Below, one piece after another: positions 1-9,270 of a DNA stretch of 9,270 nt (positions are counted from its first letter, which is position 1; every line of letters begins with the position of its first letter). The translations under genes and the position numbers were made by a program. This stretch comes from Tenericutes bacterium ADurb.BinA155 (lineage in GTDB: Bacteria; Bacillota_I; Bacilli_A; RFN20; CAG-826), in assembly GCA_002068375.1 (NCBI GenBank), contig MVZL01000040.1, forward strand, positions 1 through 9,270, read 5' to 3'. The notes beneath the pieces were generated by a model. That model ran no database searches. It had not been told where the DNA came from and saw only the letters and a list, made by a program, of their open reading frames with translations.

Positions 1-1
1 C

Positions 2-649
2 CCCGCCTCGATCAAGGCCTTCGTCGCGGGACTAGACCCGAAACGAAACTACGATGCGATCATCCTCAACGCCGCGGTTTATTATCCGAAAAAAGGCAGC
101 AAAGCCGGCGATGGGACATCCCTCACTTTCATGACGAACGCGGTCGGAACCTATCTTCTTTATAATGAGTTCCGCGAGAAATTCCCTAAAGCCCGTTACG
201 TCTTCGTCGATTCGATCGTGAATCGGACCCCGCATCATCGGGATTACGCTTCCTATCTTGGGCAAGGAGGCAACCGCCGGGCCGAAGAATACGCGGTCAG
301 CAAACGGGCGGTCATGAATATCTATGGCTATGGGCGGATCCATCATCCGGAAGACGCCCTCTACATGTCGCACCCTGGGGTTTCCGGGACCGCGATCTTC
401 GATGGCTTCCCGCCCCTGATCCGGAAACTCGGCCATAAACTCCTTTATCTCGTGGTTCATCATCCCTGGAAAGCCTGCTTAGGCGAAGTGTATTTAGCGA
501 CGGCGCCCTTACCGGCCGGAACCTTAGCCGGCCCCCGCGGCCTTTTCCAAATCTCGGGGTATCCCCGCATCATCAAAACCAGCGAAAAAAAGATCTTCCG
601 GGATGCGGAAGATCTCCATTTAGCGTTCTATCGGGTCTATCACGTTTAA
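2..649 (+). CDS. Short-chain dehydrogenase/reductase (SDR), 5' end outside window
   Basis: This is the C-terminal 215 residues of an SDR-family NAD(P)-dependent oxidoreductase; the frame is open to the window edge, so the true start and the glycine-rich nucleotide-binding motif lie upstream. Visible family marks, numbered from the first complete codon, are LNAAV at 22-26 (the NNAG-type motif after strand 4), a candidate catalytic Ser71 in VFVDS, and the catalytic YAVSK pair Tyr97/Lys101. These are followed by HPGVSGT, the usual 'HPG..T' cofactor-side motif. The Ser-Tyr distance of 26 residues is longer than the roughly 13 of classical SDRs, so either a loop is inserted or the serine assignment is off. 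The long C-terminal part resembles retinol-dehydrogenase/WWOX-like SDRs. Substrate cannot be predicted. Its TAA stop shares TTAA with the stop of the converging kinase gene. Confidence 0.85.
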   Translation, partial: PASIKAFVAGLDPKRNYDAIILNAAVYYPKKGSKAGDGTSLTFMTNAVGTYLLYNEFREKFPKARYVFVDSIVNRTPHHRDYASYLGQGGNRRAEEYAVSKRAVMNIYGYGRIHHPEDALYMSHPGVSGTAIFDGFPPLIRKLGHKLLYLVVHHPWKACLGEVYLATAPLPAGTLAGPRGLFQISGYPRIIKTSEKKIFRDAEDLHLAFYRVYHV

Positions 650-1188
650 TCGCGTGAGGTGAGAGCCGCCATATATTTCGAATAGATATCGTCGCCGATT
701 TCTTCGATGCTGCGGTCGCCGGTTTCGATCGTGAAATCGGTCGGGAGGATTTTGCCTTTGCTAAAGGCAGTTCGGTCGTTAACGAGGCGTTCTTTGATGA
801 GCTTCGGGTCATCGCCGCGCCCGATCATCCGCTTCTCCCGAACCGCTTCGGGGGCTTCGAGATAGAACGTGATGAGGCGCGGGTCTTCAAGAGCCAAGAA
901 GTTCTTGAGGCCATTTGGATCAACCACGACGCACTTATCGTCATTCACCTGCGACTTGCTGCAGCCGTAGTAGTGGCCATTGTAATAGGTATGCTCAACC
1001 AGCTTATTTTCCACCATCAGCTTTTTAAAGGCGTCTTCGCTCACGAAGAAATAATCGACCCCATCTTTTTCGCCAACCCGCGGTAAACGGGAAGTATGGG
1101 TGATCGCCTTCACAATCCCATAGCGGGAGCGGAGATACTTGGCGATTTCGGTTTTTCCTGAGGCGGAGGCCCCGACAAGAAGAATCAT
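646..1188 (-). CDS. Guanylate kinase-like P-loop nucleotide kinase
   Basis: A 180-residue cytoplasmic protein of the guanylate kinase fold, expected to transfer phosphate from ATP to GMP or a similar nucleotide. Walker A is GASASGKT (6-13). The GMP-binding block follows as TSRLPRVGEKDGVDYFF (32-48, with Arg34 and Arg37). Next come Glu65 and the YYNGHYYG stretch (68-75), matching the 'E...G.YYG' of Gmk, a VVVDPNG segment (87-93) where Gmk has its 'D..G' strand, and a lid-like RMIGRGDD (120-127) with two arginines. It is shorter than typical Gmk (about 200 residues), and its P-loop differs from the usual GPSGVGKG/GxSGxGK form. A Gmk paralogue or related kinase is therefore possible, and no gmk symbol is assigned. 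ATG at 1186-1188 is the only sensible start: no in-frame ATG, GTG or TTG lies just upstream. There is no clear Shine-Dalgarno, but a -10 box sits immediately upstream. Confidence 0.8.
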   Translation of the reverse strand: MILLVGASASGKTEIAKYLRSRYGIVKAITHTSRLPRVGEKDGVDYFFVSEDAFKKLMVENKLVEHTYYNGHYYGCSKSQVNDDKCVVVDPNGLKNFLALEDPRLITFYLEAPEAVREKRMIGRGDDPKLIKERLVNDRTAFSKGKILPTDFTIETGDRSIEEIGDDIYSKYMAALTSRD

Positions 1189-1195
1189 TTGACCT

Positions 1196-1201
1196 ATTAT
1201 A
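1196..1201 (-). promoter_or_regulatory. -10 box for the guanylate kinase-like gene (leaderless transcript likely)
   Basis: A perfect TATAAT on the minus strand ends 7 bases before the ATG. Sigma-A transcription normally starts about 7 bases after the -10, so the mRNA would begin at or next to the start codon. This fits the lack of a ribosome binding site. No good -35 hexamer is visible at 16-18 bases, so the promoter assignment rests mainly on the -10. Confidence 0.5.
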
Positions 1202-1291
1202 AGCCAACTCGTTTTTCAGGAGTAGAGCGAAAAGAACAAAAAAGTTTTCCTGCGATGGCGTCTATCTTTTTTATCTTTCGGAGCAAATTTC

Positions 1292-1321
1292 TTGTCCGTT
1301 TTCTTCTTTCGGGGCTATATA
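1292..1321 (+). promoter_or_regulatory. Sigma-A-type promoter of the Tad-like operon
   Basis: -35 TTGTCC (1292-1297) and -10 TATATA (1316-1321) are separated by 18 bases. Transcription would start around 1328, leaving a leader of only about 13-15 bases. The AGGAGG ribosome binding site (1327-1332) lies 8 bases before the ATG at 1341, so it would sit at the extreme 5' end of the message. It is divergent from the kinase promoter about 90 bases away. Confidence 0.5.
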
Positions 1322-1340
1322 TAAGTAGGAGGAAAAAAAG

Positions 1341-1694
1341 ATGAGCGATGGCGTCGACGTCACCTTAAAGGACCTGGATAGCAAAGAAAAGGCTCTTTTA
1401 ATCGGGGCGGTTTACCGGCAAGCGCTGATCGAGGTCGGACATAGCGCCGATTATCACGTGTATGACCTCGAACAGGATTTGATTGAGCATAAGCTTTCCT
1501 TAGCGGCGGGAGTCTTTCTCCAGCACGTGAAAGCCTTCTATGACTCGCTCCCGGAACTCCAGCAGAAGGTCTTCTTAGTCGAGTGTTTGGAACATGGGCG
1601 GCACTATGCCTATTGGTACCTCCCTTACTTCAGCCCGAAGAACTTCAGCCACGTCTGTTCGTCCGTCTATAAAAAAGCCGATTCGGCTTTCTAA
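1341..1694 (+). CDS. Small soluble protein, first gene of the Tad-like operon, unknown function
   Basis: A 117-residue protein that I do not recognise. It has no signal peptide or membrane segment and reads as mostly alpha-helical, with helices around 14-32, 42-68, 71-86 and 101-115. The last third (LPELQQKVFLVECLEHGR, 70-87, then YFSPKNFSHVCSSVYKKA, 96-113) loosely resembles a helix-turn-helix of the sigma region 4 type, with a bulky helix, a turn and a basic final helix. This is only a weak resemblance. The start is secure: a perfect AGGAGG lies 8 bases before ATG, and the operon promoter is directly upstream. It is 10 bases from the next gene, so probably co-transcribed, and a regulator or accessory factor of the pilus-like system is plausible. 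The last codons form a hairpin (see 1674-1690). Confidence 0.7.
   Translation: MSDGVDVTLKDLDSKEKALLIGAVYRQALIEVGHSADYHVYDLEQDLIEHKLSLAAGVFLQHVKAFYDSLPELQQKVFLVECLEHGRHYAYWYLPYFSPKNFSHVCSSVYKKADSAF
1674..1690 (+). repeat. Hairpin at the 3' end of the first operon gene
   Basis: AAAGCCG and CGGCTTT form a 7-bp stem with a 3-base loop, overlapping the last codons before the stop at 1692-1694. On the plus strand it is followed by CTAAAAAATAG, not a T run, so it is a poor terminator there. On the minus strand the same stem is followed by a run of Ts, but no minus-strand gene reads into it. It could act as an attenuator, a processing site or an mRNA-end stabiliser between the first gene and the rest of the operon. 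Confidence 0.4.
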
Positions 1695-1704
1695 AAAATA
1701 GCCT

Positions 1705-2727
1705 ATGAAATATCGCCTTCTCGCTTGCTTATTTTCGTTATGCGCGGGCTTAGGACTCGGGGGCAGCAAAAACGCGGTTCCCCAAAATGCCGGGATCTTC
1801 GCCCGCGGGCTCCTCTTAACCTTGAACCGTTTCCACACAACGAGCCTTTCTTTCACCTTCATCCCGGCGACGACCTCGCATTACCGGATCACCGTCGGGA
1901 TCACGAACAGCCTTTGCGACCGGGAACAGCTGGTCTACGAACTCCAAGATTATCCCTTGAACGCTTATCAAAGTTTCTATGCCTCGGCCCCGATCGATCC
2001 GACGGTTTGGAAGATCGCCAAAACCGATAACGTCGTTTGGGTCCGGGTCCTTGAGCTGAACTACACGAGGAGCTGGTCGGGTCAATGCACGATCGACGCC
2101 ATCCACGCGACCGGGGTTTATCCCGCGAGCGGTGAGGGTGGGATGAAAAGCGGGAACCAATACGTCTATTTCGACTCGGCCAAGCACCTTCTTAGCTGCG
2201 GATCCGAGTACGCTTGGAGCTTGCCGAGCGGCACCCAATATAACCCGGTCTACAATACGGTCGATTATTCCGCGATCTGGATCCATTACGTCAATCCGGC
2301 CTTTCAGAGCTTCGGCGGGGATTTGACGCTGCGCCTCTACGATCACCTCGATGAATTCGAGGTCGGGACCCTCGTGAATACCGGCCAGACCCGTTATCGG
2401 TCTTTCCCGGTTCGTTTCACCCCAAATAAACTAGGCAATACCGCCTATTATCAGTGGACCATCATGGGGAATGAAACCTATGCGGTCGACCGGCGGAACC
2501 TCCATATGAAGCCCTTAGAAGAAGCCGGCCCTAACGATTTCACTTCGACGAACGTCTATCTTCCGACCGGGTTAGCCCAGGTTGGGGTCCCTTATCACTT
2601 CAGGCTCTGTCTCAACGAAATGGGTAGCGCTGGTGACTTCATCCTGGTCAATTTGACGGTGGAACGAACGAAGGAGCACTTCGGCGATTGCGTCCATAGC
2701 GACTATTGCGTGGTGGTGGGAGGTTAA
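1705..2727 (+). CDS. Exported six-cysteine protein of the Tad-like operon, unknown family
   Basis: A 340-residue protein that I do not recognise. Residues 1-20 (MKYR, then a hydrophobic stretch rich in Leu, Cys, Gly) look like a Sec signal peptide or N-terminal anchor. No proper lipobox is formed by Cys8 or Cys13. The rest is hydrophilic, rich in aromatic residues, Thr, Ser and Asn, and reads as beta-rich, so it is probably outside the membrane. Apart from the leader it has six cysteines (71, 128, 165, 302, 329, 335), enough for three disulfides. The C-terminus is CVHSDYCVVVGG. No enzyme motif was found. It sits 10 bases after the first gene and 2 bases before the next, so it is likely an operon member. 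A surface or tip component, adhesin or pilus-assembly partner is inferred from position only. There is no Shine-Dalgarno before the ATG, yet this start gives the signal-peptide-like leader. Confidence 0.75.
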   Translation: MKYRLLACLFSLCAGLGLGGSKNAVPQNAGIFARGLLLTLNRFHTTSLSFTFIPATTSHYRITVGITNSLCDREQLVYELQDYPLNAYQSFYASAPIDPTVWKIAKTDNVVWVRVLELNYTRSWSGQCTIDAIHATGVYPASGEGGMKSGNQYVYFDSAKHLLSCGSEYAWSLPSGTQYNPVYNTVDYSAIWIHYVNPAFQSFGGDLTLRLYDHLDEFEVGTLVNTGQTRYRSFPVRFTPNKLGNTAYYQWTIMGNETYAVDRRNLHMKPLEEAGPNDFTSTNVYLPTGLAQVGVPYHFRLCLNEMGSAGDFILVNLTVERTKEHFGDCVHSDYCVVVGG

Positions 2728-2729
2728 CG

Positions 2730-3131
2730 ATGCTGAACCTTCTTTTATGGGCGGGGATTCTCACCTTCAGCCTCGCTTCCTTCAATTACACCTACATGAT
2801 CGGGACGATCAATCGGGTCTTCTTAGGTCTCTATAAAGCGGTCCCGGAGTCTTCGGTGATCGCCTATAGCCCCCAAGGACAAGGGACCGTTCCCTACTTT
2901 GACCTCACGCTTTTAAGGAGCGCTCTTAGCCGTTATTTCACCCTCAATCTTCCGAGCTATGTCCCGACGTATACCCTCGATATCGCTTCTTACCTCAAAA
3001 GCGAGACCGGGGTCGTGGCGACGACGACCACCCCCAATCAGGTCTCGATCCATTTCCATAGCAACGTCGGGGCGCTTGGCTCCTACGATAAAACCGCTCT
3101 CTTCACCTTAGTCCGGAGCCGCTATGAGTGA
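2730..3131 (+). CDS. Small N-anchored pseudopilin-like protein
   Basis: A 133-residue protein with a hydrophobic N-terminus (about 1-18) that continues as a likely amphipathic helix (19-37). The remaining soluble, probably mixed alpha/beta part contains a Thr-rich patch (VVATTTT, 95-101). The layout of one N-terminal helix plus a small outer domain is that of TadE/pseudopilin-like subunits, but no diagnostic motif or prepilin cleavage site is visible, so the role is inferred from layout and operon position. The start is ATG 2730, not the in-frame TTG at 2706: GGGAGG inside the last codons of the preceding gene sits 6 bases upstream. The 3' end overlaps the ATPase gene by 8 bases, so translation is probably coupled. 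Confidence 0.75.
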   Translation: MLNLLLWAGILTFSLASFNYTYMIGTINRVFLGLYKAVPESSVIAYSPQGQGTVPYFDLTLLRSALSRYFTLNLPSYVPTYTLDIASYLKSETGVVATTTTPNQVSIHFHSNVGALGSYDKTALFTLVRSRYE

Positions 3132-4089
3132 AGAGAGATTGATCCGCTTCGTGGAGACTTCCTTTCTAAAAGGGATCCTCCAAGAAGCGAATGTGACCGA
3201 TATCGCCTATAACGGTTCCCAAATTTTCTATGAGGATAGCTTATTGGGCCGCCAAAAGGCCAACCTCAAAGTCGGGGTCGAGCAAGTGGGGGACTTTCTC
3301 CGCCAGATCGCTAATCTCGCGGAGAAGCAGTTCTCTTACCAATCCCCGATCCTCGATGTGAGCTTCGGCCGCTACCGCCTTAACGCCGCGTTCCTGAGTC
3401 TCGTCCGGGTCCGCGACTTAAAGTCCTATAGCTTCTCCTTACGTCTAGCGAGCGGTGGCAGCAAACTCACGACCTGTCCCTCCTTCTTTGGGGGCGATAG
3501 CCTCAAGATTTTGCTCGACGCCCTCGCCAAAAAGGAATCGATTGTGATCGGCGGGGCCACGAGCTCGGGCAAGACCGAGCTTCAGAAGTATCTTCTGCTT
3601 CAGCTTCGGCCCAATACCCGGGTGATCGTGATCGATAACGTCGAGGAGCTCGAGATGGTACGGGAAGAAGACAAGATCGACCTCACCAGTTGGCTCGTCG
3701 ATGAGCGTTTCCCTTCGAGCAACTTCCCCGCCTTAATCCGTAACGCCCTCCGGAACGACCCGGATTACATCGTGGTCGCCGAAAGCCGCGGCGGCGAGAT
3801 GCTCGATGTCCTCAATTCCGCGATGTCGGGGCACCCCCTGATCTTGACGCTCCATAGCAAAGACCTCGCTTCGATGCCTTACCGGATGGCTCGGATGGCG
3901 ATGATGGGCGAGCAGAAACTCGTCTATGAAGACGTGCTAGGGGATATCTATCACCATTTCTCTTTATTCGTCTACCTCAAAAAAGACGAGCAACCCAATG
4001 GTTCAATCGCGCGTTACATCCAAAGCATCGGGCGCCTCGATGAGGCCAAACGCAAAATCAGCCTCCTCTATGAAAGGAAATCCGCATGA
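3124..4089 (+). CDS. CpaF/TadA-family type II/IV secretion ATPase
   Basis: A 321-residue cytoplasmic hexameric-type motor ATPase, expected to drive pilus assembly or secretion through the T2SF membrane proteins encoded next. Diagnostic motifs in order: Walker A GGATSSGKT (143-151, Lys150); Asp-box region VIVIDNVEE (167-175); Walker B-type block NDPDYIVVAESRGGEM (211-226, Glu220), equivalent to 'RPDRIVVGEVRGGE' of CpaF; and a His-box LILTLHS (239-245, His244). An arginine-bearing core precedes the P-loop (residues 75-110). At 321 residues it is much shorter than typical CpaF (about 400-500), lacking most of the N-terminal extension, and nearer to VirB11 in size. The ESRGGE motif and the following TadB/TadC pair favour the Tad branch over VirB11 or ComGA/PilB. 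ATG 3124 has a GGAG 5 bases upstream. It overlaps its neighbours by 8 and 4 bases. Confidence 0.93.
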   Translation: MSEERLIRFVETSFLKGILQEANVTDIAYNGSQIFYEDSLLGRQKANLKVGVEQVGDFLRQIANLAEKQFSYQSPILDVSFGRYRLNAAFLSLVRVRDLKSYSFSLRLASGGSKLTTCPSFFGGDSLKILLDALAKKESIVIGGATSSGKTELQKYLLLQLRPNTRVIVIDNVEELEMVREEDKIDLTSWLVDERFPSSNFPALIRNALRNDPDYIVVAESRGGEMLDVLNSAMSGHPLILTLHSKDLASMPYRMARMAMMGEQKLVYEDVLGDIYHHFSLFVYLKKDEQPNGSIARYIQSIGRLDEAKRKISLLYERKSA

Positions 4090-4814
4090 ACAAATTCATC
4101 CAATATCTTCTGATCTTGATCCTCTCATTGGCTTTTGGGGCGATGGCTTGTCTCATGAGCGAGTCCCTTATTTTTTTCGGGGCAGTGGCTTTCTGTTTTT
4201 TCCTCGGACTCACGCTCTTAGTCCGACCCTTATTCCTCCATTATGCCGAAAGAGAACGGAAACGCCACGAAGGCTACCGTTTTGTGAATTCTTTCATCAT
4301 CTCTTATTCGTCCAATCAGTCGTTAGAAAAGGCCTATGCCGCCAGTAGCGAGTATTCGGGCCCGGAACTCACCGAGATCTTAAAAGGGATCGAAAGCAAA
4401 GATATCCCGGCCCGCCTCGATTACCTCAAAACCTATTTCGATAACGACCTCTACGCGATGTTCCTCTCGCTCTTTCATCTTTATGAGGAGCAGGGGGGCG
4501 ATCTTCTCACCATCAGCAAAGGCTTGCTCGACGAGATCACGCGGGTCGAGGAAGCGGGCGATGCCAGCAACCGCGAATCCCTCAAAAATCTCCGGGATTT
4601 CTTGCTCCTTTGGGTCTTCTCGTTAGCGATTTTTCTCTTCCTCCGTTATGGCTTAGCGACCTTCTATAGCAGTTTGGTGAAGAGTCCGGTCTACCTTCTC
4701 ACGATCGGCGTCTTCTTTGGCTTCTTCCTGATCTCGCTAGTGATCTACGCCTTCCGTTTTGCCGAAGCGAAACCCCGCCTCCTGAAAGGACCCACCCATG
4801 AAAAAGCTGCGTGA
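4086..4814 (+). CDS. TadB-position T2SF inner-membrane platform protein
   Basis: A 242-residue membrane protein with predicted helices at about 7-24, 28-48, 172-190 and 201-222, with a cytoplasmic helical domain between (about 55-165). This layout, with the loop FVNSFIISYSSNQSLEKAY (67-85) and the EEQGGDLLTISKGLLDEI stretch (134-151), matches the T2SF (GspF/TadB) fold, in which a helical bundle contacts the ATPase and a membrane part guides subunits. It starts inside an ATGA overlap with the ATPase gene, with AAGGAAA just upstream, and overlaps the next T2SF gene by 17 bases. This is strong evidence for a stoichiometric ATPase-TadB-TadC unit. Assignment to TadB rather than TadC rests on order and size. 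Confidence 0.85.
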   Translation: MNKFIQYLLILILSLAFGAMACLMSESLIFFGAVAFCFFLGLTLLVRPLFLHYAERERKRHEGYRFVNSFIISYSSNQSLEKAYAASSEYSGPELTEILKGIESKDIPARLDYLKTYFDNDLYAMFLSLFHLYEEQGGDLLTISKGLLDEITRVEEAGDASNRESLKNLRDFLLLWVFSLAIFLFLRYGLATFYSSLVKSPVYLLTIGVFFGFFLISLVIYAFRFAEAKPRLLKGPTHEKAA

Positions 4815-5463
4815 AAACATGCTGGCCTTAGGGCTAAACCCAGGCCACGAATATCTCGTCGTTGCTTTGCTCGATATCCTTTGCCTTGCGGTTGGCGGTC
4901 TCCTCTTTTACTTCCGGGGCCGGTTGATCTTCATCCTTTACGCCGCCGGGATCGCCTTCGTCCTCAGCTTCGCCTATCTTTCCCGTTACCCCGCGGCTTT
5001 AAGGAAGGTCAACGCCAAAAAGGAAGAAGAGTTCGTCCGTCTCTTCACCTACTTTGGAATCTATATCCATAACGGCTACAACGTTTACCAGGCTCTCCAA
5101 GCCGTTTCTTCTTTTGCTTCTGACGGCCTTAAAGAAGACTTCCTGAAGCTTCTCAATGCGATCGATAACGATAAATCACCGACCCCGTACATCGCTTTTT
5201 CGAAGAATTTCGAATCTCTCGAGATCAAGCAAGTCCTTCTTTCGGTCTACCAAATGGTCGAAGAAGGCGGAGAAACCTACATCCGGCAATTCGAAGCCTT
5301 GTTCGATCGCTATTCCGCCGAGCGGCATAAGCTCACCCGCGAAGCCCACGTCGCTTCCTTAGGGAGTCTCACGGTCCTTCCCTTGCTTGGAAGCGGAATT
5401 ACGATGCTGAGCCTCACCGCGGCGATCGTGGAAGTGATGGGAGGCATCTACAATGTCCTATAA
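4798..5463 (+). CDS. TadC-position T2SF inner-membrane platform protein
   Basis: A 221-residue second T2SF-type protein. Predicted membrane helices lie at about 20-38, 43-61 and 186-213. The cytoplasmic helical domain starts with EEEFVRLFTYFGIYIHNG (76-93), followed by YNVYQALQAVSS (94-105), the typical 'hydrophobic bundle, NG, aliphatic helix' of GspF domains. It continues to the MVEEGGETYIRQF helix (153-165). Two separate T2SF proteins after a CpaF-type ATPase are the hallmark of Tad/type IVc systems. The ATG has AAGGA 7 bases upstream, within the end of the preceding gene. The C-terminal codons (VMGG) supply the ribosome binding site of the next gene, which overlaps by 11 bases. Confidence 0.85.
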   Translation: MKKLRENMLALGLNPGHEYLVVALLDILCLAVGGLLFYFRGRLIFILYAAGIAFVLSFAYLSRYPAALRKVNAKKEEEFVRLFTYFGIYIHNGYNVYQALQAVSSFASDGLKEDFLKLLNAIDNDKSPTPYIAFSKNFESLEIKQVLLSVYQMVEEGGETYIRQFEALFDRYSAERHKLTREAHVASLGSLTVLPLLGSGITMLSLTAAIVEVMGGIYNVL

Positions 5464-5794
5464 ATTAGGGTTGCTTTTATCCTTCTTCTTCATGGTTCAG
5501 GTCCTTCTATTTGCCGGGGACCTCGCCTGCATCGACGCGATCCATAGCGAACTCGATGCGATCGCGGTCACCGCCTCTTATCAGATCTCGATGAATGGGG
5601 AACTGACCGAGGCGACCAAAAAGCTGGTCCATGATGAGGCCGGCGCTGAAATCTATTTGCTCAGCGAAGGAAGCGCCAAACTCGGCGATTCCATTAGCTT
5701 TGGGGTCTACCGCGACTATCAGCCGTTCATCGTTTCGAAAGAAGCGGTGCGAATCAGTGTTCGAAGAACCGCGATTGTCGGTTACTTCGCATAA
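5453..5794 (+). CDS. TadE-like pseudopilin candidate
   Basis: A 113-residue protein with a strongly hydrophobic N-terminal helix (about 5-24, GLLLSFFFMVQVLLFAGD), continuing as a helix to about residue 42, then a small outer domain that reads as beta-rich towards the C-terminus (ISVRRTAIVGYFA at the end). One N-terminal helix, a short globular domain and a position between TadC and the pilin candidate fit a TadE/TadF-like minor subunit. No Gly-x-x-x-Glu prepilin site is visible, so processing is uncertain. The start is supported by GGGAGG 8 bases before ATG and an 11-base overlap with the upstream gene. One cysteine, Cys26, lies just after the membrane segment. Confidence 0.7.
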   Translation: MSYKLGLLLSFFFMVQVLLFAGDLACIDAIHSELDAIAVTASYQISMNGELTEATKKLVHDEAGAEIYLLSEGSAKLGDSISFGVYRDYQPFIVSKEAVRISVRRTAIVGYFA

Positions 5795-5809
5795 GAAAGG
5801 AGGACCCCG

Positions 5810-6004
5810 ATGTCGGAAATAAAAGGGCAGATGCTGGGAATGATTCTCGTTCTCATGGTGTTCGGCCTCGTCGCTGGCATTCTCTACGCCAGTTTCAGGC
5901 AGAGCGCCCAAAACATCTCGTCGCAACTTGCGAACGAGAACGGCCTCGTCAGTACCGCACCCGCGAAAACCGGTGCCTACCACCCGCTCGCCTATCAAGG
6001 CTAG
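5810..6004 (+). CDS. Flp-like small pilin candidate
   Basis: A 64-residue protein with a short charged leader (MSEIKG), a hydrophobic helix (about 8-27, MLGMILVLMVFGLVAGILYA), an amphipathic extension (FRQSAQNISSQLANE, 29-43) and a short polar tail. Size, layout and place as last gene of a Tad-like operon match Flp-type pilins, which form the fibre. A cleavage after Gly6 is conceivable, but the glutamate at mature position 5 and the EY pair of classical Flp pilins are absent, so this assignment is an inference from context. It has the best ribosome binding site of the operon's 3' part (AGGAGG, 6-7 bases before ATG) and a 15-base gap from the previous gene, which suits high expression. It ends in TAG a few bases before the operon terminator. 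Confidence 0.7.
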   Translation: MSEIKGQMLGMILVLMVFGLVAGILYASFRQSAQNISSQLANENGLVSTAPAKTGAYHPLAYQG

Positions 6005-6007
6005 CTG

Positions 6008-6046
6008 AAAAGAGATCCCTAAAGCACTTTAGGGGTCTTTTCTTTT
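6008..6046 (+). terminator. Intrinsic terminator of the Tad-like operon
   Basis: AGATCCCTAAAG pairs with CTTTAGGGGTCT (one G-T pair) around a very short loop, and the right arm runs into TTTTCTTTT. It starts four bases after the stop of the pilin candidate and closes the operon before the acyl carrier protein promoter. Confidence 0.85.
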
Positions 6047-6062
6047 CGGGCTTATTGTCTAT

Positions 6063-6091
6063 TTGCGCTCCTTGCCCAAGATGCCTATAAT
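6063..6091 (+). promoter_or_regulatory. Promoter of the acyl carrier protein gene, -10 inside a palindrome
   Basis: -35-like TTGCGC (6063-6068) and a perfect -10 TATAAT (6086-6091) are 17 bases apart. The -10 lies in the centre of the inverted repeat GCCTATAATAGGC (6083-6095), directly followed by the 8-base palindrome CCTCGAGG (6095-6102). Transcription would start near 6098, and the ribosome binding site GAGGT (6099-6103) stands 9 bases before the ATG. Confidence 0.6.
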
Positions 6092-6112
6092 AGGCCTCGA
6101 GGTATTAACCAC

Positions 6113-6352
6113 ATGGCTACTTCCCAGATGGACGAAATCAAAAAGATGTTTGCCGAGCGGATCGGCGTCAGCAAAGTCGATGAATCCAAATCGCTCAAAG
6201 AAATCGGTCTCGACAGTCTCGACGTGGTCGAGATGTGCCTTGATCTCGAAGATAAATTCGGCATTCAATTCGAAACCGAAGAATTGAGTCAATTCAAGAC
6301 CGTCGGCGATCTTTTTGCTTCAATCGAAAAGAAACTTGCGGCGAAGAAATAA
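6113..6352 (+). CDS. acpP: Acyl carrier protein
   Basis: A 79-residue acidic, helical acyl carrier protein that carries acyl chains as thioesters on a 4'-phosphopantetheine arm during fatty acid and phospholipid synthesis in the cytoplasm. The attachment site is Ser35 in GLDSLDVVEM (32-41), the classical DSL motif, followed by the helix-2 recognition region rich in Glu and Asp. Further family marks are LEDKFGIQFETEEL (45-58) and the final helix region TVGDLFASIEKKL. The length is typical of bacterial AcpP. ATG 6113 is chosen because GAGGT is upstream; Met6 is an internal alternative without one. It has its own promoter and is not near other fatty acid genes here. The next gene follows after 11 bases. 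Confidence 0.95.
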   Translation: MATSQMDEIKKMFAERIGVSKVDESKSLKEIGLDSLDVVEMCLDLEDKFGIQFETEELSQFKTVGDLFASIEKKLAAKK

Positions 6353-6363
6353 CCGCGTTTTCT

Positions 6364-7893
6364 ATGGCGAAGCGCTTCTCTTTGCTCGGATTTTTGCAAA
6401 GGCATTCGCGCCTCGCTTTTTTGTTAGGCGCCATCGTTTTGTCCTTCGTCACCGTCTTCCTCTCGAATGGCTTATCGAACATCATCATCTATCCGAATTT
6501 CCGGACCGACCAATTCGTTCAGGATCCGGAATTTTTCTATTTGTTCGCTTCTTTGATGCTGAAAGGCAAGACCCCTTATATCGATTTGTTCGACCATAAA
6601 GGCCTCTATATCTTCTGGTTCCACGCCCTTGGGCAGCTCATGGGGGGGTCGGCGCCCCGGGTTGGCCTTTTCTTCCTCGAAGTCCTGAACTTTATCCCGG
6701 TCTTCTATTTCATGTTCCTGATCTTCGAAACGATCGGCTTAGGCAAAAAGACCTCGTGTCTTTGGGTCCTTTTCTTCTCGGCCGTCTTCATCATCCAAAT
6801 CCAAGGCGCAAGCGATGAAGAGATTGAGCTTCCTTCGGTCGTGATCCCGCTCTATTTCTATATCCGGGGGCTCTTACGGAAAAACGATACCGACCTCATG
6901 ATCGGCAATATCTTCTTTGGGGTCTCGGCTGGGATTTGTTTGAACTTGCGCCCGAGCGACGCGATGTTCGCCTTAGGGGCGGTCATCTTCTATGCGATCC
7001 ATATGTTCTACCAAAAGAAGTGGCGGTTGGTCTTACGGGACGCCGCCCTCTGCTTAGGGGCTTTGATCCTCACGAGTTTACCGGCTTATATCGCCGCCGC
7101 CACCGGGGGCTATCTGAACGCGATGTTCCAAAGCGTGATCATCGATAGTTTCCGCTATGTCGGCAATGTCAGCAGCCCCACGAGCTTCCTCACGGTGTCT
7201 TCCCGAGTCGCGGTCGGAACCGCCTTCGTGCTCTTTGGCGGGATCTTAGCCTACCTCTATAAGCGGATCGACCGAGGCGAATGGCATTTCTATGCGGTCG
7301 GCCTTCTTTTTGTGGCCCCCCTTCAATTCTTCATTGGCTTATTCGCCCATTACTGGATCATGGCTTATCCCTATCTGATCCTCGTCTTGGCCCGCTTCGT
7401 CCAGAACCTGCCCAAAGTCCAGAAGTCCAAAGGCTGGAAGATCGGGCTAGCCAGCGCCTGCCTTGCCTTTTTCGTTGCTTGCTCCGCCTTCTGGCCCACG
7501 ATCTATTACGCGGGAGGCCAAGCCCAGGCTGATGTCGATACCATCGCCTATGTGAAGAAAACCATCAGCGAGGATGACCGGAAGAACGAACACGTTCTCG
7601 CGATCGACGGCAACATGGGGGTCTATAACGGAGCGGGGATCATCCCCGGGACCAAAGATTTCGGGATGCAAAGTTGGCATAGCGTCCTCGATGACACCTT
7701 GGTGCCGCGGCTTGAAGACTATCTTCTCTCCGGCCAAATCCATTACGTCATCATGGACGAAGTGGTGGAAGATAATGAACACACCCTCGGCGACTTCGTT
7801 GAGAATAACCCTCAAAACTTCCAATTGGTCGATACGAAAGAGACTTGCCCCTATATCGATATTTATCATTACGTCGGCCCAAATTCGCATTGA
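6364..7893 (+). CDS. Polytopic GT-C/GT39-like glycosyltransferase-family membrane protein
   Basis: A 509-residue integral membrane protein with about ten hydrophobic segments between residues 16 and 385 and a soluble C-terminal domain (about 385-509). The first outer loop carries Asp49 and Asp54 (RTDQFVQDPEFFYL, 47-60), then the motif YIDLFDHKG (72-80). 'Y.D.FDHKG' after an acidic first loop is characteristic of GT39/ArnT-like GT-C proteins, which transfer sugars from polyprenyl-phosphate donors outside the membrane; an Asp in the first loop is catalytic in that family. Other noticeable motifs are LNLRPSDA (193-200) and HYWIMAYPY (329-337). Donor and acceptor cannot be predicted. It follows acpP by 11 bases with no Shine-Dalgarno, so its translation probably depends on coupling to acpP. 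No clear terminator was seen after it. Confidence 0.75.
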   Translation: MAKRFSLLGFLQRHSRLAFLLGAIVLSFVTVFLSNGLSNIIIYPNFRTDQFVQDPEFFYLFASLMLKGKTPYIDLFDHKGLYIFWFHALGQLMGGSAPRVGLFFLEVLNFIPVFYFMFLIFETIGLGKKTSCLWVLFFSAVFIIQIQGASDEEIELPSVVIPLYFYIRGLLRKNDTDLMIGNIFFGVSAGICLNLRPSDAMFALGAVIFYAIHMFYQKKWRLVLRDAALCLGALILTSLPAYIAAATGGYLNAMFQSVIIDSFRYVGNVSSPTSFLTVSSRVAVGTAFVLFGGILAYLYKRIDRGEWHFYAVGLLFVAPLQFFIGLFAHYWIMAYPYLILVLARFVQNLPKVQKSKGWKIGLASACLAFFVACSAFWPTIYYAGGQAQADVDTIAYVKKTISEDDRKNEHVLAIDGNMGVYNGAGIIPGTKDFGMQSWHSVLDDTLVPRLEDYLLSGQIHYVIMDEVVEDNEHTLGDFVENNPQNFQLVDTKETCPYIDIYHYVGPNSH

Positions 7894-7927
7894 AAAAAGA
7901 AAGGCCGAAGAAAAGCGGTGGAAGTTG

Positions 7928-7956
7928 TTGCAAACGGCGGGCCGCTTAATTAGAAT
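7928..7956 (+). promoter_or_regulatory. Promoter of the tRNA-Asn/tRNA-Glu transcript
   Basis: -35 TTGCAA (7928-7933) and -10 TAGAAT (7951-7956) are separated by exactly 17 bases. Start would be near 7963, leaving about 30 bases of leader to be trimmed before the first tRNA. Confidence 0.65.
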
Positions 7957-7992
7957 AATTGGGCGCTTGCAAAGGCGCAAAGTTCTCCACGC

Positions 7993-8067
7993 GCTCACTT
8001 AGCTCAATGGTAGAGCAATCGGCTGTTAACCGATCGGTTGTAGGTTCGAGCCCTATAGTGAGCGCCA
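7993..8067 (+). tRNA. tRNA-Asn (GTT)
   Basis: A complete cloverleaf. The acceptor GCTCACT (7993-7999) pairs with AGTGAGC (8057-8063). The D arm is closed by GCTC/GAGC. The anticodon stem ATCGG/CCGAT encloses loop CTGTTAA with anticodon GTT at 8025-8027. The T stem GTAGG/CCTAT encloses TTCGAGC. The discriminator is G and the CCA end is encoded (8065-8067). It reads AAC/AAT codons. Confidence 0.97.
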
Positions 8068-8074
8068 TTTCTAT

Positions 8075-8151
8075 GGCCCGGTGGAGAAGTGGCTTAACTC
8101 ACATGCCTTTCACGCATGCATTCATGGGTTCGAACCCCGTCCGGGTCACCA
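8075..8151 (+). tRNA. tRNA-Glu (TTC)
   Basis: A complete cloverleaf, 7 bases after tRNA-Asn and surely co-transcribed. The acceptor GGCCCGG (8075-8081) pairs with CCGGGTC (8141-8147, one G-T pair). The D stem is GAG/CTC. The anticodon stem CATGC/GCATG encloses loop CTTTCAC with anticodon TTC at 8109-8111. The T stem ATGGG/CCCGT encloses TTCGAAC. The discriminator is A and the CCA end is encoded (8149-8151). It reads GAA/GAG codons. Confidence 0.95.
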
Positions 8152-8162
8152 TACCGACTATA

Positions 8163-8270
8163 TCCGAACTTCTTCATAATTAGAGGAACGTTCGGATTCA
8201 GCATAGACATTCGAAAAGACATTGCGAAATACTCGAAGATGTTCGCTCATCCTCGGGTATACAAACGAGG
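8163..8270 (+). other. Hairpin-rich trailer after the tRNAs, possible small RNA
   Basis: The 8152-8367 stretch has no gene. Three stem-loops precede a terminator. First, TCCGAACTTCTTC (8163-8175) pairs with GAGGAA-C-GTTCGGA (8183-8196), giving 13 base pairs with one bulged C and loop ATAATTA. Second, GCGAA (8224-8228) pairs with TTCGC (8242-8246). Third, CCTCG (8251-8255) pairs with CGAGG (8266-8270). None is followed by a T run, so they are not terminators. The stretch could be a tRNA-transcript trailer or carry a small RNA released by tRNA processing. It matches no RNA family I know, and the 5-bp stems may be chance. Confidence 0.35.
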
Positions 8271-8282
8271 TCCAAGAAATCA

Positions 8283-8306
8283 CGGAAGCTGATGCTTCCG
8301 TTTTTT
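8283..8306 (+). terminator. Intrinsic terminator of the tRNA transcript
   Basis: CGGAAGC (8283-8289), loop TGAT, GCTTCCG (8294-8300) and then six Ts (8301-8306). This is a textbook terminator on the plus strand, 131 bases after the tRNA-Glu CCA end. No plus-strand gene follows in the window. Confidence 0.9.
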
Positions 8307-8367
8307 CATGCCAATAACGATCTATTGGTTTATATATCTCCTTAGAAAGAAGAAAAGACCAAAATTC

Positions 8368-8766
8368 CTATTTTTCCTCAACTGAGATACATTCGTAAGA
8401 AAGTGTAAAAAGCCCACCAACCCGAAAATGAATAGTAGTTGTTTTACTGACATCTTTGATTTCGAATTGCCCTGAGCAATTACGAACAGTAGGGTTGTTA
8501 TAAGACTGTTTGTTCACGGGATAACCAAATTGATAAGAATGAACCCCAGGTAATAATTGGATTTCAAGCTTTTGGCCGACATCAACATTTCCAACCGGAT
8601 TACCATCAATGCTTGCTTGCGCAGACCACATAGAATTGCCGGATTCTCTAATAATAATCACCTTTTGTTTAGCGGATTTATCGTGCAAAGGATAACCACA
8701 ATGGATACAAACATCAGCTTTGTCAGAGACCATTTGCCCGCATTCAGGACATTTAATTAAAGCCAT
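8368..8766 (-). CDS. Zinc-ribbon protein with C-terminal beta-rich domain
   Basis: A 132-residue protein. Its N-terminus is a zinc ribbon with two knuckles, CPEC (6-9) and CIHC (20-23), spaced as in the small zinc-ribbon domains at the N-terminus of many Bacillota proteins (MALIKCPECG start, HCGYPL end). A basic linker (about 28-36) follows, then a domain that reads as beta strands with IDGNPVGNV (53-61) and LLPGVHSYQFGYP (71-83). The 'IDG..vG...l.pG.H' pattern recalls PEGA/DUF2846-like surface-type domains; I am unsure of that. No membrane helix is present, so it is probably cytoplasmic. The function is unknown. ATG 8766 is chosen over the upstream in-frame TTG at 8799 because AAGGAG lies 6 bases before it. 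Base composition is clearly more A+T-rich than the genes left of the tRNAs. I see no convincing terminator after it. Confidence 0.85.
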   Translation of the reverse strand: MALIKCPECGQMVSDKADVCIHCGYPLHDKSAKQKVIIIRESGNSMWSAQASIDGNPVGNVDVGQKLEIQLLPGVHSYQFGYPVNKQSYNNPTVRNCSGQFEIKDVSKTTTIHFRVGGLFTLSYECISVEEK

Positions 8767-8784
8767 AAAAGACTCCTTTTTATT

Positions 8785-8793
8785 ATTATAACA
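8785..8793 (-). promoter_or_regulatory. Extended -10 promoter of the zinc-ribbon gene
   Basis: The minus strand reads TGTTATAAT, a perfect -10 with the TGn extension, about 18 bases before the start codon. No good -35 is seen at the usual distance, which the extended -10 can compensate. The inverted repeat at 8802-8816 covers the -35 region. Confidence 0.6.
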
Positions 8794-8801
8794 AACCAAA
8801 A

Positions 8802-8816
8802 GTTCAGTTTTTGAAC
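8802..8816. repeat. Short inverted repeat upstream of the zinc-ribbon promoter
   Basis: GTTCA and TGAAC are separated by five bases (GTTTT) and lie where the -35 box would be. It is operator-like in position, but the 5-base arms are short enough to occur by chance. Confidence 0.25.
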
Positions 8817-8821
8817 AAACG

Positions 8822-8844
8822 AAAAAAAGCCTAGTTTCCTAGGC
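8822..8844 (-). terminator. Intrinsic terminator after the 52-residue gene
   Basis: Read on the minus strand: GCCTAG, loop GAAA, CTAGGC, then seven Ts. It lies 8 bases after the stop of the 8853-9011 gene and ahead of the zinc-ribbon promoter, so it separates the two minus-strand units. The plus strand has no T run after the stem. Confidence 0.85.
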
Positions 8845-8852
8845 CTAAAATG

Positions 8853-9011
8853 TTATTTTGAATCAGGTTTTGGATGCCGTCTTTTCCACTTTTTAAAGTC
8901 TTCTTGAATTTTGGGATCCTGAAAGAGTTCCGCAATACAAGGAAGAAGAAACTCGGCAAAGAGTTCGACTTGTTGATTAGAAATACATTCAGTCTTAGCC
9001 GGTTTGTTCAT
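8853..9011 (-). CDS. 52-residue hypothetical protein
   Basis: A small gene that I do not recognise. The product has a polar N-terminus (MNKPAKTECISNQQ), a helical middle (VELFAEFLLPCIAELFQD, 15-32) and a strongly basic end (DFKKWKRRHPKPDSK, 38-52). No membrane segment long enough to span is present. Evidence that it is real: its ATG overlaps the stop of the upstream gene as ATGA (9008-9011), and a well-formed terminator follows its TAA by 8 bases. Short proteins with a 'LLP...f.Dp..q..F..W' pattern and basic tail occur in accessory regions of Bacillota genomes, to my recollection, but no function can be claimed. Confidence 0.65.
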   Translation of the reverse strand: MNKPAKTECISNQQVELFAEFLLPCIAELFQDPKIQEDFKKWKRRHPKPDSK

Positions 9012-9268
9012 GATCCGGACTTCTTTCCATAGAAGAGTTCCATGAGCTCATCAGAGACATTGATGTTCATCCCCGGAAGAGCGAACAAGAACCTCATGGC
9101 CTCATCAACTGAAACGAATTCTTTATTGCCAAGATGGCGGCGCCGCTGATTGATGACCTGAAGGTCTTTCTTATCCAGGCGGCCGGAACCTTCCACAAGA
9201 AGGATTTTGATGATTTCCAAAGGGGATTTGCTGATGGTCGCACAAACCCGGCACAAAGCTTTAGAGGC
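9008..9268 (-). CDS. Unknown protein, C-terminal part; 5' end outside window
   Basis: The minus-strand frame is open to the window edge, so the 5' end is missing. A TTG at 9254-9256 could serve as start, but the frame continues as Ala-Ser-Lys-Ala upstream, and no start signal can be judged. The visible 87 residues are mostly helical, with CRVCA near the beginning, a basic patch (INQRRRHLGNKEF) in the middle and a final acidic helix (SDELMELFYGKKSGS). I recognise no family. It overlaps the 52-residue gene by 4 bases (ATGA) and is co-transcribed with it up to the terminator at 8822-8844. Confidence 0.6.
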   Translation of the reverse strand, partial: ASKALCRVCATISKSPLEIIKILLVEGSGRLDKKDLQVINQRRRHLGNKEFVSVDEAMRFLFALPGMNINVSDELMELFYGKKSGS

Positions 9269-9270
9269 TT

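Follow-up and report, generated by a model that had tools for sequence, protein, structure and literature searches.

A conserved eight-gene operon of uncultured Bacilli: a probable minimal, Tad-derived type IV filament machine

Introduction

Can a type IV filament machine dispense with pilin processing? Two reviews count the prepilin peptidase among the conserved core components of these filaments (PMC4471445, PMC10191384). The question is raised by an operon of eight genes, g1-g8, at positions 1341-6004 of a 9,270-nt stretch of DNA from Tenericutes bacterium ADurb.BinA155 (assembly GCA_002068375.1, contig MVZL01000040.1, positions 1 to 9,270, forward strand), hereafter the window. An initial annotation had read these eight tightly packed genes as a compact, divergent operon of the Tad (tight adherence)/type IVc pilus kind; all eight open reading frames (ORFs) are present on the plus strand, overlapping or almost abutting. 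Here we argue that the operon probably encodes a minimal type IV filament machine, derived from Tad, in gut Bacilli that have one membrane and mostly no wall, and that its subunits are probably assembled uncut. The argument draws on computed results: the set and order of the genes, their conservation and the purifying selection on them, start-proximal hydrophobic helices, the absence of A24 prepilin peptidases from nearly all carriers searched and of penicillin-binding proteins (PBPs) from most, and the clade of the ATPase.

Results

The operon is conserved in order and under purifying selection

Relatives were gathered from species genomes with an alignment of 23 ATPases, and the best 80 of 157 were kept; locus counts include the window. 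Genes were detected by iterated profiles, one per gene, taking the best ORF per locus at a loose E-value limit of 1e-3. All eight genes stand in identical order in 56 of the 67 loci that span g1-g8 (55 of 66 without the window). Where the contig reaches, g1 is detected in 66/74 loci, g2 in 75/76, g3 in 81/81, g5 in 77/78, g6 in 76/76, g7 in 74/75 and g8 in 73/73; the 81/81 for g4 follows from selection, the loci having been chosen via the ATPase. The usual position of the operon is between gmk (66/70) and acpP (66/68). Two divergent genomes depart from this: L157 keeps the block of eight with neither gene beside it, and L156 has gmk without acpP, so the linkage is more than frozen flanks. The initial annotation had proposed such a neighbourhood comparison, in which conserved co-occurrence of the 340-residue g2 and the 64-residue g8 with the ATPase would support one system; both do accompany it. 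The source organisms of all 80 relative loci are uncultured and are classed under Bacilli, Erysipelotrichaceae, Mollicutes, Bacillales, Bacillota or similar, and the suggested Mollicutes-related Bacilli lineage holds.

Absent or scattered small genes in related genomes had been named as evidence against a single system; losses are rare, the cases being L063 without g5 and L195 without g8. L063 (10001-11857) is left with a single platform protein, which could reflect assembly loss. L195 (genome G066, 5492-11257, reverse-complement) is a divergent operon with a fast-evolving ATPase, in which the place of g8 is taken by two proteins that are membrane-anchored and larger, one of 320 and one of 195 residues.

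We next considered spread in a draw of 146 genomes from the order of genome G001 (80% completeness requested), which we take to be RFN20 from its PBP pattern and genus placement. The ATPase alignment matches 106 of them at E<=1e-3, 100 of these at E<1e-30. A full classical tad cluster elsewhere, the other objection foreseen, finds little backing: apart from split genes, any second CpaF-like ATPase in this draw matches no better than E 8.8e-11, and no gene-by-gene search for classical tad clusters was made. A scan of IMG/VR gave 81 pattern matches, with no relative among them.

Among close pairs, with 8 to 13 usable pairs for each gene, the median ratio of nonsynonymous to synonymous substitution rates (dN/dS) is 0.038-0.090 per gene (0.09 for g2), and one g1 pair reaches 0.89. 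Every one of the eight genes is under purifying selection; the operon is thus both genuine and conserved. Decay of a classical tad locus into a non-functional remnant would explain why TadV, TadZ and RcpC are missing from the locus, as the initial annotation had already remarked (no match among the window proteins scanned), and why a reduced version without the ATPase exists. The intact ORFs, the low dN/dS values and the invariant motifs of the ATPase speak so strongly against decay that we find this explanation hardly credible.

The ATPase forms a clade outside classical CpaF

The CpaF/GspE/VirB11-type secretion ATPase g4 (3124..4089, 321 residues) is the only product of g1-g8 above a family cut-off in the Pfam scan (T2SSE, 67.4 bits against 24.9), and K150, T151, E220, R222 and H244 are invariant in its alignment A1, which holds the window and 22 of the 120 relatives listed. 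Its earlier assignment as CpaF-type is sound, with the qualification that the g4 family is a clade separate from the classical Tad CpaF. In an unrooted tree of 35 rows, where L195, VirB11 and TrbB form long branches, the window family is supported at 99/97, a sister family at 98/94, two plasmid copies at 100/99, and classical Tad together with VirB11/TrbB at 100/99. In a PDB sequence search with g4, archaeal GspE, VirB11 and FlaI outscore CpaF. The family PF27713, precomputed on database relatives of g4, was not among the Pfam matches of our own scan.

Some of the closest ATPases from the plasmid collection come from Listeria (L199:6800-9970) and Bacillus safensis (L202:208-3366). They are followed by two membrane proteins and a leaderless transmembrane (TM) hypothetical protein of ~118 residues. 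Together with a relative in G157 that lies beside genes read as conjugation-type, they could suggest that the operon is a conjugation-related module acquired from a plasmid. This is very unlikely, as most loci lie between gmk and acpP and the operon is spread through the order (100/146); no relaxase or coupling-protein gene was noticed beside it, no systematic search having been made. On the Listeria plasmid, surface proteins of the WxL, DUF916 and thioester-domain kinds are encoded upstream of this set.

The sister family was met in a class-wide draw of 395 genomes. Matches at E<1e-60 were genomes already seen in the order, with G153 as the sole exception, and a second tier at E 1e-33 to 1e-45 comprised 56 genomes from other parts of Bacilli, marked by the sister ATPase (order and outside being assigned via handle numbers). 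Twenty regions were fetched, 15 of which could be read as sister operons. Most contain a pilin-like TM gene, a gene at the RcpC/CpaB position, the ATPase, TadB, TadC and a tiny pilin of ~50-90 residues, often with a 110-residue TM protein. RcpC/CpaB exceeds the Pfam cut-off in both of the two sister operons tested, which makes a Tad-like ancestor of the window's operon likely. In profile alignments with hhalign, seven pooled 110-residue TM proteins match g7 (74%, 2.7e-5), and the TadB-position proteins match g5 (76.6%, 2e-5) and g6 (96.2%, 2e-9). Homology of the sister tiny pilins to g8 was not detected (2.5%), and the g2 and g3 profiles gave no match at E<0.05 in the sister regions read. A single protein of 487-498 residues occupies the TadB and TadC positions in L180 (7951-9414) and L193 (6186-7682), suggesting a fused platform in some sister operons.

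Downstream of the ATPase gene lie those of the putative TadB-like membrane platform protein g5 (4086..4814, 242 residues) and the putative TadC-like g6 (4798..5463, 221 residues). The matches behind the claim of two T2SF proteins are weak. For g6 T2SSF scores 17.1 bits, under the cut-off of 25.2, and its homologues match T2SSF more often than any other family (9/32). Window g5 has no T2SSF match; among its homologues T2SSF is tied for most frequent (3/32 at E<=0.1). These alignments were thinned to 32 of 78 (g5) and 32 of 77 (g6) sequences. PDB sequence searches with alignments of g1, g5, g6, g7 and g8 gave no convincing match.

Hydrophobic helices of the pilin-like proteins begin near the start codon

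Three products resemble pilins: g3 (2730..3131, 133 residues, with ATG 2730 preferred over 2706), the TadF-like g7 (5453..5794, 113 residues, beginning MSYKLGLLLS) and g8 (5810..6004, 64 residues), in which MSEIKGQ is followed by a hydrophobic helix and a short tail. The AlphaFold2 (AF2) model of g3, with a predicted local distance difference test score (pLDDT) of 91.3, has an N-terminal helix of ~40 residues (2-41) and a beta sheet, which is how pilins are generally built, as far as the model tells. Only one of 66 g3 members matches TadE (E 0.044). Homologues of g7 match TadF more often than any other Pfam family (6/48, best 2.4e-4), and window g7 itself matches nothing. The initial annotation had described two proteins as single-helix and pseudopilin-like; the fold matches of g3 stay at background. 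The other small protein, g8, is Flp-sized as described, ranging from 47 to 87 residues across loci; it has no family match to Flp and is the probable major pilin. The alignments were thinned to 66 of 81 (g3), 48 of 74 (g7) and 36 of 75 (g8).

The hydrophobic run starts at a median of residue 1 in g3 (81 genes), 5 in g7 (75) and 8 in g8 (75), and begins at or before residue 8 in 67/75 g8 proteins. A Shine-Dalgarno match of at least 4 nt precedes the start in 74/81 g3, 57/75 g7 and 69/75 g8 genes. Another in-frame upstream start codon is present in 26/81, 11/75 and 6/75 and lacking in 55/81, 64/75 and 69/75, respectively, counts in which the script mis-set 8 of the 75 g8 starts. Prepilin leaders are described as having 6-26 residues and, in bacteria, a terminal Gly (PMC4471445). 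Read from these starts, g3 and g7 are therefore leaderless, and a leader of g8 would have at most six residues, MSEIKG, which could be a minimal one. The g8 N-terminus follows the pattern MSE[I/L]KG[Q/T], with E3, K5 and G6 in 67/75 proteins each; in a test for a class III leader with Glu5, the fifth residue past Gly6 proved not to be Glu.

Most carriers lack an A24 prepilin peptidase

A known peptidase that could cut g8 is lacking in most carriers. A24 exceeds its Pfam cut-off in 5/146 genomes of the order draw and in 2/100 carriers of the operon ATPase (G083 and G104). Twelve carriers searched separately, six of them also in the draw, gave A24 in two (G004 and G008), hence in 2/6 further carriers and in 4/106 combined. 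The initial annotation, which asked for such a search, had left open whether a peptidase is encoded elsewhere or not at all. The second option is better supported (98/100 plus 4/6 carriers), and the first could apply to those four.

Poor sensitivity is unlikely to explain the absence, because in the class-wide draw, at E<=1e-3, A24 was found in 53/56 sister-ATPase genomes against 2/44 order genomes with the operon ATPase (G083, and G090 below the cut-off). Where A24 occurs in carriers, the surrounding genes read as a type IVa/Com-like cluster apart from the operon. Each of the seven A24 loci inspected adjoins a PilC-type protein (401-408 residues) or leader-bearing pilins, so we take A24 to belong to another machine. 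In G153, an A24-like gene lies beside the ATPase.

If the machine were a conventional Tad-like pilus, with a peptidase that is unrecognised, outside A24 or highly diverged cutting g8 behind MSEIKG, this would account for the conservation of K5 and G6 and for a segment of just the minimal leader length. This reading could further appeal to the family search itself, positive in 12/14 control genomes, and to the four A24-bearing carriers. An alignment of seven relatives' A24 proteins, however, recovered the same five order genomes and added only one chance-level 18-bit match with an internal stop, the sister-ATPase genomes show how regularly A24 is found where the related ATPase occurs, and g3 and g7 offer no leader to cut. 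Cleavage of g8 is thus unlikely, if a serious contender, and we favour assembly of uncut subunits.

Cell envelope, DNA uptake and the exported protein g2

A PBP transpeptidase was found in 25/146 genomes of the order draw, 7/100 with the operon and 18/46 without. With so few positive carriers, most are probably wall-less. ComEC is present in 99/146. Its frequency, beside A24 in so few genomes that a classical ComG system with peptidase must be rare, would suit a pseudopilus that takes up DNA for natural transformation together with ComEC. An association of ComEC with the operon was rejected: ComEC is equally frequent with (68/100) and without (31/46) the operon ATPase (p = 1.0, the genomes being mutually related, so that Fisher p-values are not independent tests). 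Neither comE nor comF was noticed beside the operon in the 12 loci whose neighbours were read by eye, as were all neighbour genes for which no family search is cited. We consider a role in DNA uptake rather unlikely.

The second gene, g2 (1705..2727), encodes a Sec-exported, fast-evolving protein of 340 residues with an N-terminal signal peptide, recognised by inspection, and 8 cysteines, which bears out its description as exported and cysteine-rich. A word search gave only 2 homologues; further relatives came from the iterated profiles within loci (alignment thinned to 61 of 76), and 49/80 homologues have a cysteine pair near the C-terminus. The AF2 model (mean pLDDT 71) comprises the signal peptide and two all-beta parts, of which the C-terminal is confident (blocks of 83-97 over residues 201-300). 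We regard g2 as a candidate tip or surface protein. A type II-like piston that secretes g2 or other Sec-exported proteins, with no surface fibre, would be in keeping with the very short major subunit, with an exported, fast-evolving g2, and with carriers that mostly lack a PBP transpeptidase. A one-membrane cell would presumably release g2 by Sec alone, and a piston would add nothing obvious; we therefore judge this alternative improbable, though on a par with cleavage of g8.

The first gene, g1 (1341..1694, 117 residues), encodes a cytoplasmic, helix-turn-helix (HTH)-like protein with an ArpU-like C-terminus. Its family appears to belong with NF045770 (MG284/MPN403), which 34/40 members match at E<=0.1 (best 3.4e-20; alignment thinned to 40 of 64); window g1 reaches 16.9 bits against a cut-off of 37.3. 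In other Bacilli, g1 often lies beside genes read as hpf and ptsI, away from the machine, and so is not machine-specific. On this point the initial annotation needs correcting; g1 is probably regulatory.

Reduced forms of the operon

We examined nine order-draw genomes with g1 and no operon ATPase. T2SSE exceeds the cut-off in 0/9; sub-cut-off matches, in long frames, occur in 6/9. Eight of the loci (L145, L148-L151 and L153-L155, with two pairs of near-copies among them) contain, in this order, g1, homologues of g2 and g3, a membrane protein of 291-377 residues and a g7 homologue; the ninth, L152, ends at the contig edge. Pooled families from the ATPase-less loci match g2 (94.8%), g3 (93.4%) and g7 (96.7%) in hhalign, and the membrane protein matches g5 weakly (39%). 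The ATPase and g8 were not found in the region of the eight loci, and for g8 no genome-wide search was made. Since g2, g3 and g7 persist together without them, we group the three as one sub-complex, and the eight loci, judged by sequence, may encode a motor-less, pilin-like surface complex.

In Mollicutes, translated with TGA as Trp, acpP lies at most 2 kb downstream of the g1 family in 13/18 loci fetched, with two genes between them in 12. The order in L128, L129, L132-L135, L138, L139 and L163-L166 is an MG284-family gene, a gene of ~360-390 residues, a one-TM gene of ~135-212 residues and acpP; Mycoplasma genitalium MG284-MG287 presumably has the same order. As homologues of g2 and g3, the middle genes (~375 and 140-210 residues) were rejected (hhalign 0.2% and 0.7%, not detected), so the link to Mollicutes is one of synteny only, by which their MG284-acpP cluster is possibly a shrunken counterpart of the window locus.

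Boundaries and neighbours

The operon is flanked by the divergent gmk (guanylate kinase, 646..1188, minus strand; Guanylate_kin, 64.5 bits) and by acpP (acyl carrier protein, 6113..6352, plus strand; PP-binding, 48.3 bits), both outside the machine. A hairpin with a T-rich tail 3' of g8 (6017-6034), read by eye, is a possible intrinsic terminator. The single terminator of the initial annotation is consistent with this hairpin, although the terminator scan lists it solely for the minus strand, and the count of terminator-like sites shows no clear excess (18 against 12.7, sd 4.1, in shuffles). Its single promoter is not supported by the promoter scan, which found 5 sites in the window against 6.9 in shuffles. 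Downstream of acpP and a 509-residue membrane protein lie tRNA-Asn and tRNA-Glu (7993-8151).

Discussion

From these data we infer the topology, order of assembly and tip of a machine, its lack of cleavage and the existence of a filament. The major subunit g8 and the minor subunits g3 and g7 would be inserted by Sec and the signal recognition particle (SRP) such that the N-terminus stays in the cell and the body faces out, like mature pilins. They may be recruited without cutting by a prepilin peptidase, because g3 and g7 are leaderless and the leader of g8 has at most six residues. A complex of g3 and g7 would start the tip, where the secreted beta-protein g2 might bind, and the ATPase g4, acting via g5 and g6, would push g8 subunits in beneath it. 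The product may be a short filament or a pseudopilus that presents or moves g2, and g1 would regulate the operon. With no outer membrane or wall to cross, a secretin and related parts would be unneeded. The machine may serve as a fibre, in secretion or in DNA uptake.

Several observations weigh against this proposal. MSEIKG|Q, although without Glu5, resembles a prepilin leader of minimal length with Lys-Gly at its end, and its near-invariance could mean cutting there. G083, G104, G004 and G008 do carry A24, and in them a shared peptidase is possible; the A24 counts, moreover, describe relatives' genomes, the window's own not being among them, and most genomes used are metagenome-assembled. The fold search with g2 gave no match above background, nor did that with g3, which listed pseudopilins only at background Z (5.2 and 4.7), and the g5 protein of the window matched no family. 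L195, where the rest of the operon exists without g8, is one case of the absent small genes held to speak against a single system. Finally, the ATPase-less clusters show that parts exist without the motor, which leaves room for an original role other than a filament.

A history can be proposed for a filament machine without any prepilin processing, its pilins made nearly mature and assembled uncut: a Tad-like ancestor with leader-poor pilins would have lost its peptidase in wall-less gut Bacilli and, in a further lineage, been reduced to the motor-less surface complex, and perhaps to the MG284-acpP cluster. We offer this sequence of events tentatively, with rather less confidence than the machine itself. 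If the proposal is true, prepilin cleavage is a removable step, dispensed with in a machine present in 100/146 genomes, 98 of which lack A24 above the cut-off; the operon would encode the smallest pilus-type machine known to us and provide a surface organelle for uncultured, probably wall-less gut bacteria.

In literature searches that left most subscription journals outside their scope, we found nothing on Tad pili with RF39 or on MG284-MG287 or MPN403-405. Searches for type IV filaments with Mollicutes, pilins without peptidase, RFN20 pili and Tenericutes tight adherence returned no description of this operon in the accessible text, nor do the accessible parts of PMC12786226, PMC6668835, PMC10868615, PMC7301438, PMC4471445 and PMC10191384 contain one. 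The word "pilus" occurs 0 times in the main texts, as accessible, of two genome surveys (PMC10868615, PMC7301438). For the sister CpaF operons, no search was made for a published name.

With the Tad/type IVc (Flp) pilus the operon shares a CpaF-type ATPase and, via the sister operons, RcpC/CpaB; two separate putative platform proteins, a Flp-sized probable major subunit and a possible TadF-like minor subunit resemble its parts. It differs in an ATPase outside the classical CpaF clade, in putative minor pilins that are leaderless, in the added g1, g2 and g3, in lacking A24 in nearly all carriers, and in the absence of TadV, TadZ and RcpC from the locus. Because none of these three was found there, we refrain from classing the operon with Tad pili, although we expect that it would work like one. 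The sister CpaF operons have the ATPase, putative platform proteins, a tiny pilin whose helix lies near the start codon and the g7-like 110-residue protein in common; unlike the window, they retain RcpC/CpaB (2/2 tested), lie in genomes with A24 (53/56) and give no g2 or g3 profile match. The MG284/MPN403 cluster of Mollicutes has the g1 family and acpP within 2 kb downstream, whereas its middle genes lack detectable homology to g2 and g3 and no ATPase was seen beside it.

Among other machines, the Com pilus (ComG) of monoderms is likewise a pilus of one-membrane cells, and many of these genomes have ComEC. The pilins of the ComG system bear leaders, and its peptidase is ComC, of the A24 family; here A24 is absent above the cut-off in 98/100 carriers and ComEC shows no association with the operon. 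Mannose-sensitive haemagglutinin (MSHA) pili resemble the operon in that their locus, MSH, has no prepilin peptidase gene of its own; according to the source, however, MSH genomes systematically hold another, peptidase-bearing system (PMC6668835), whereas 98/100 carriers of the operon have no such peptidase above the cut-off.

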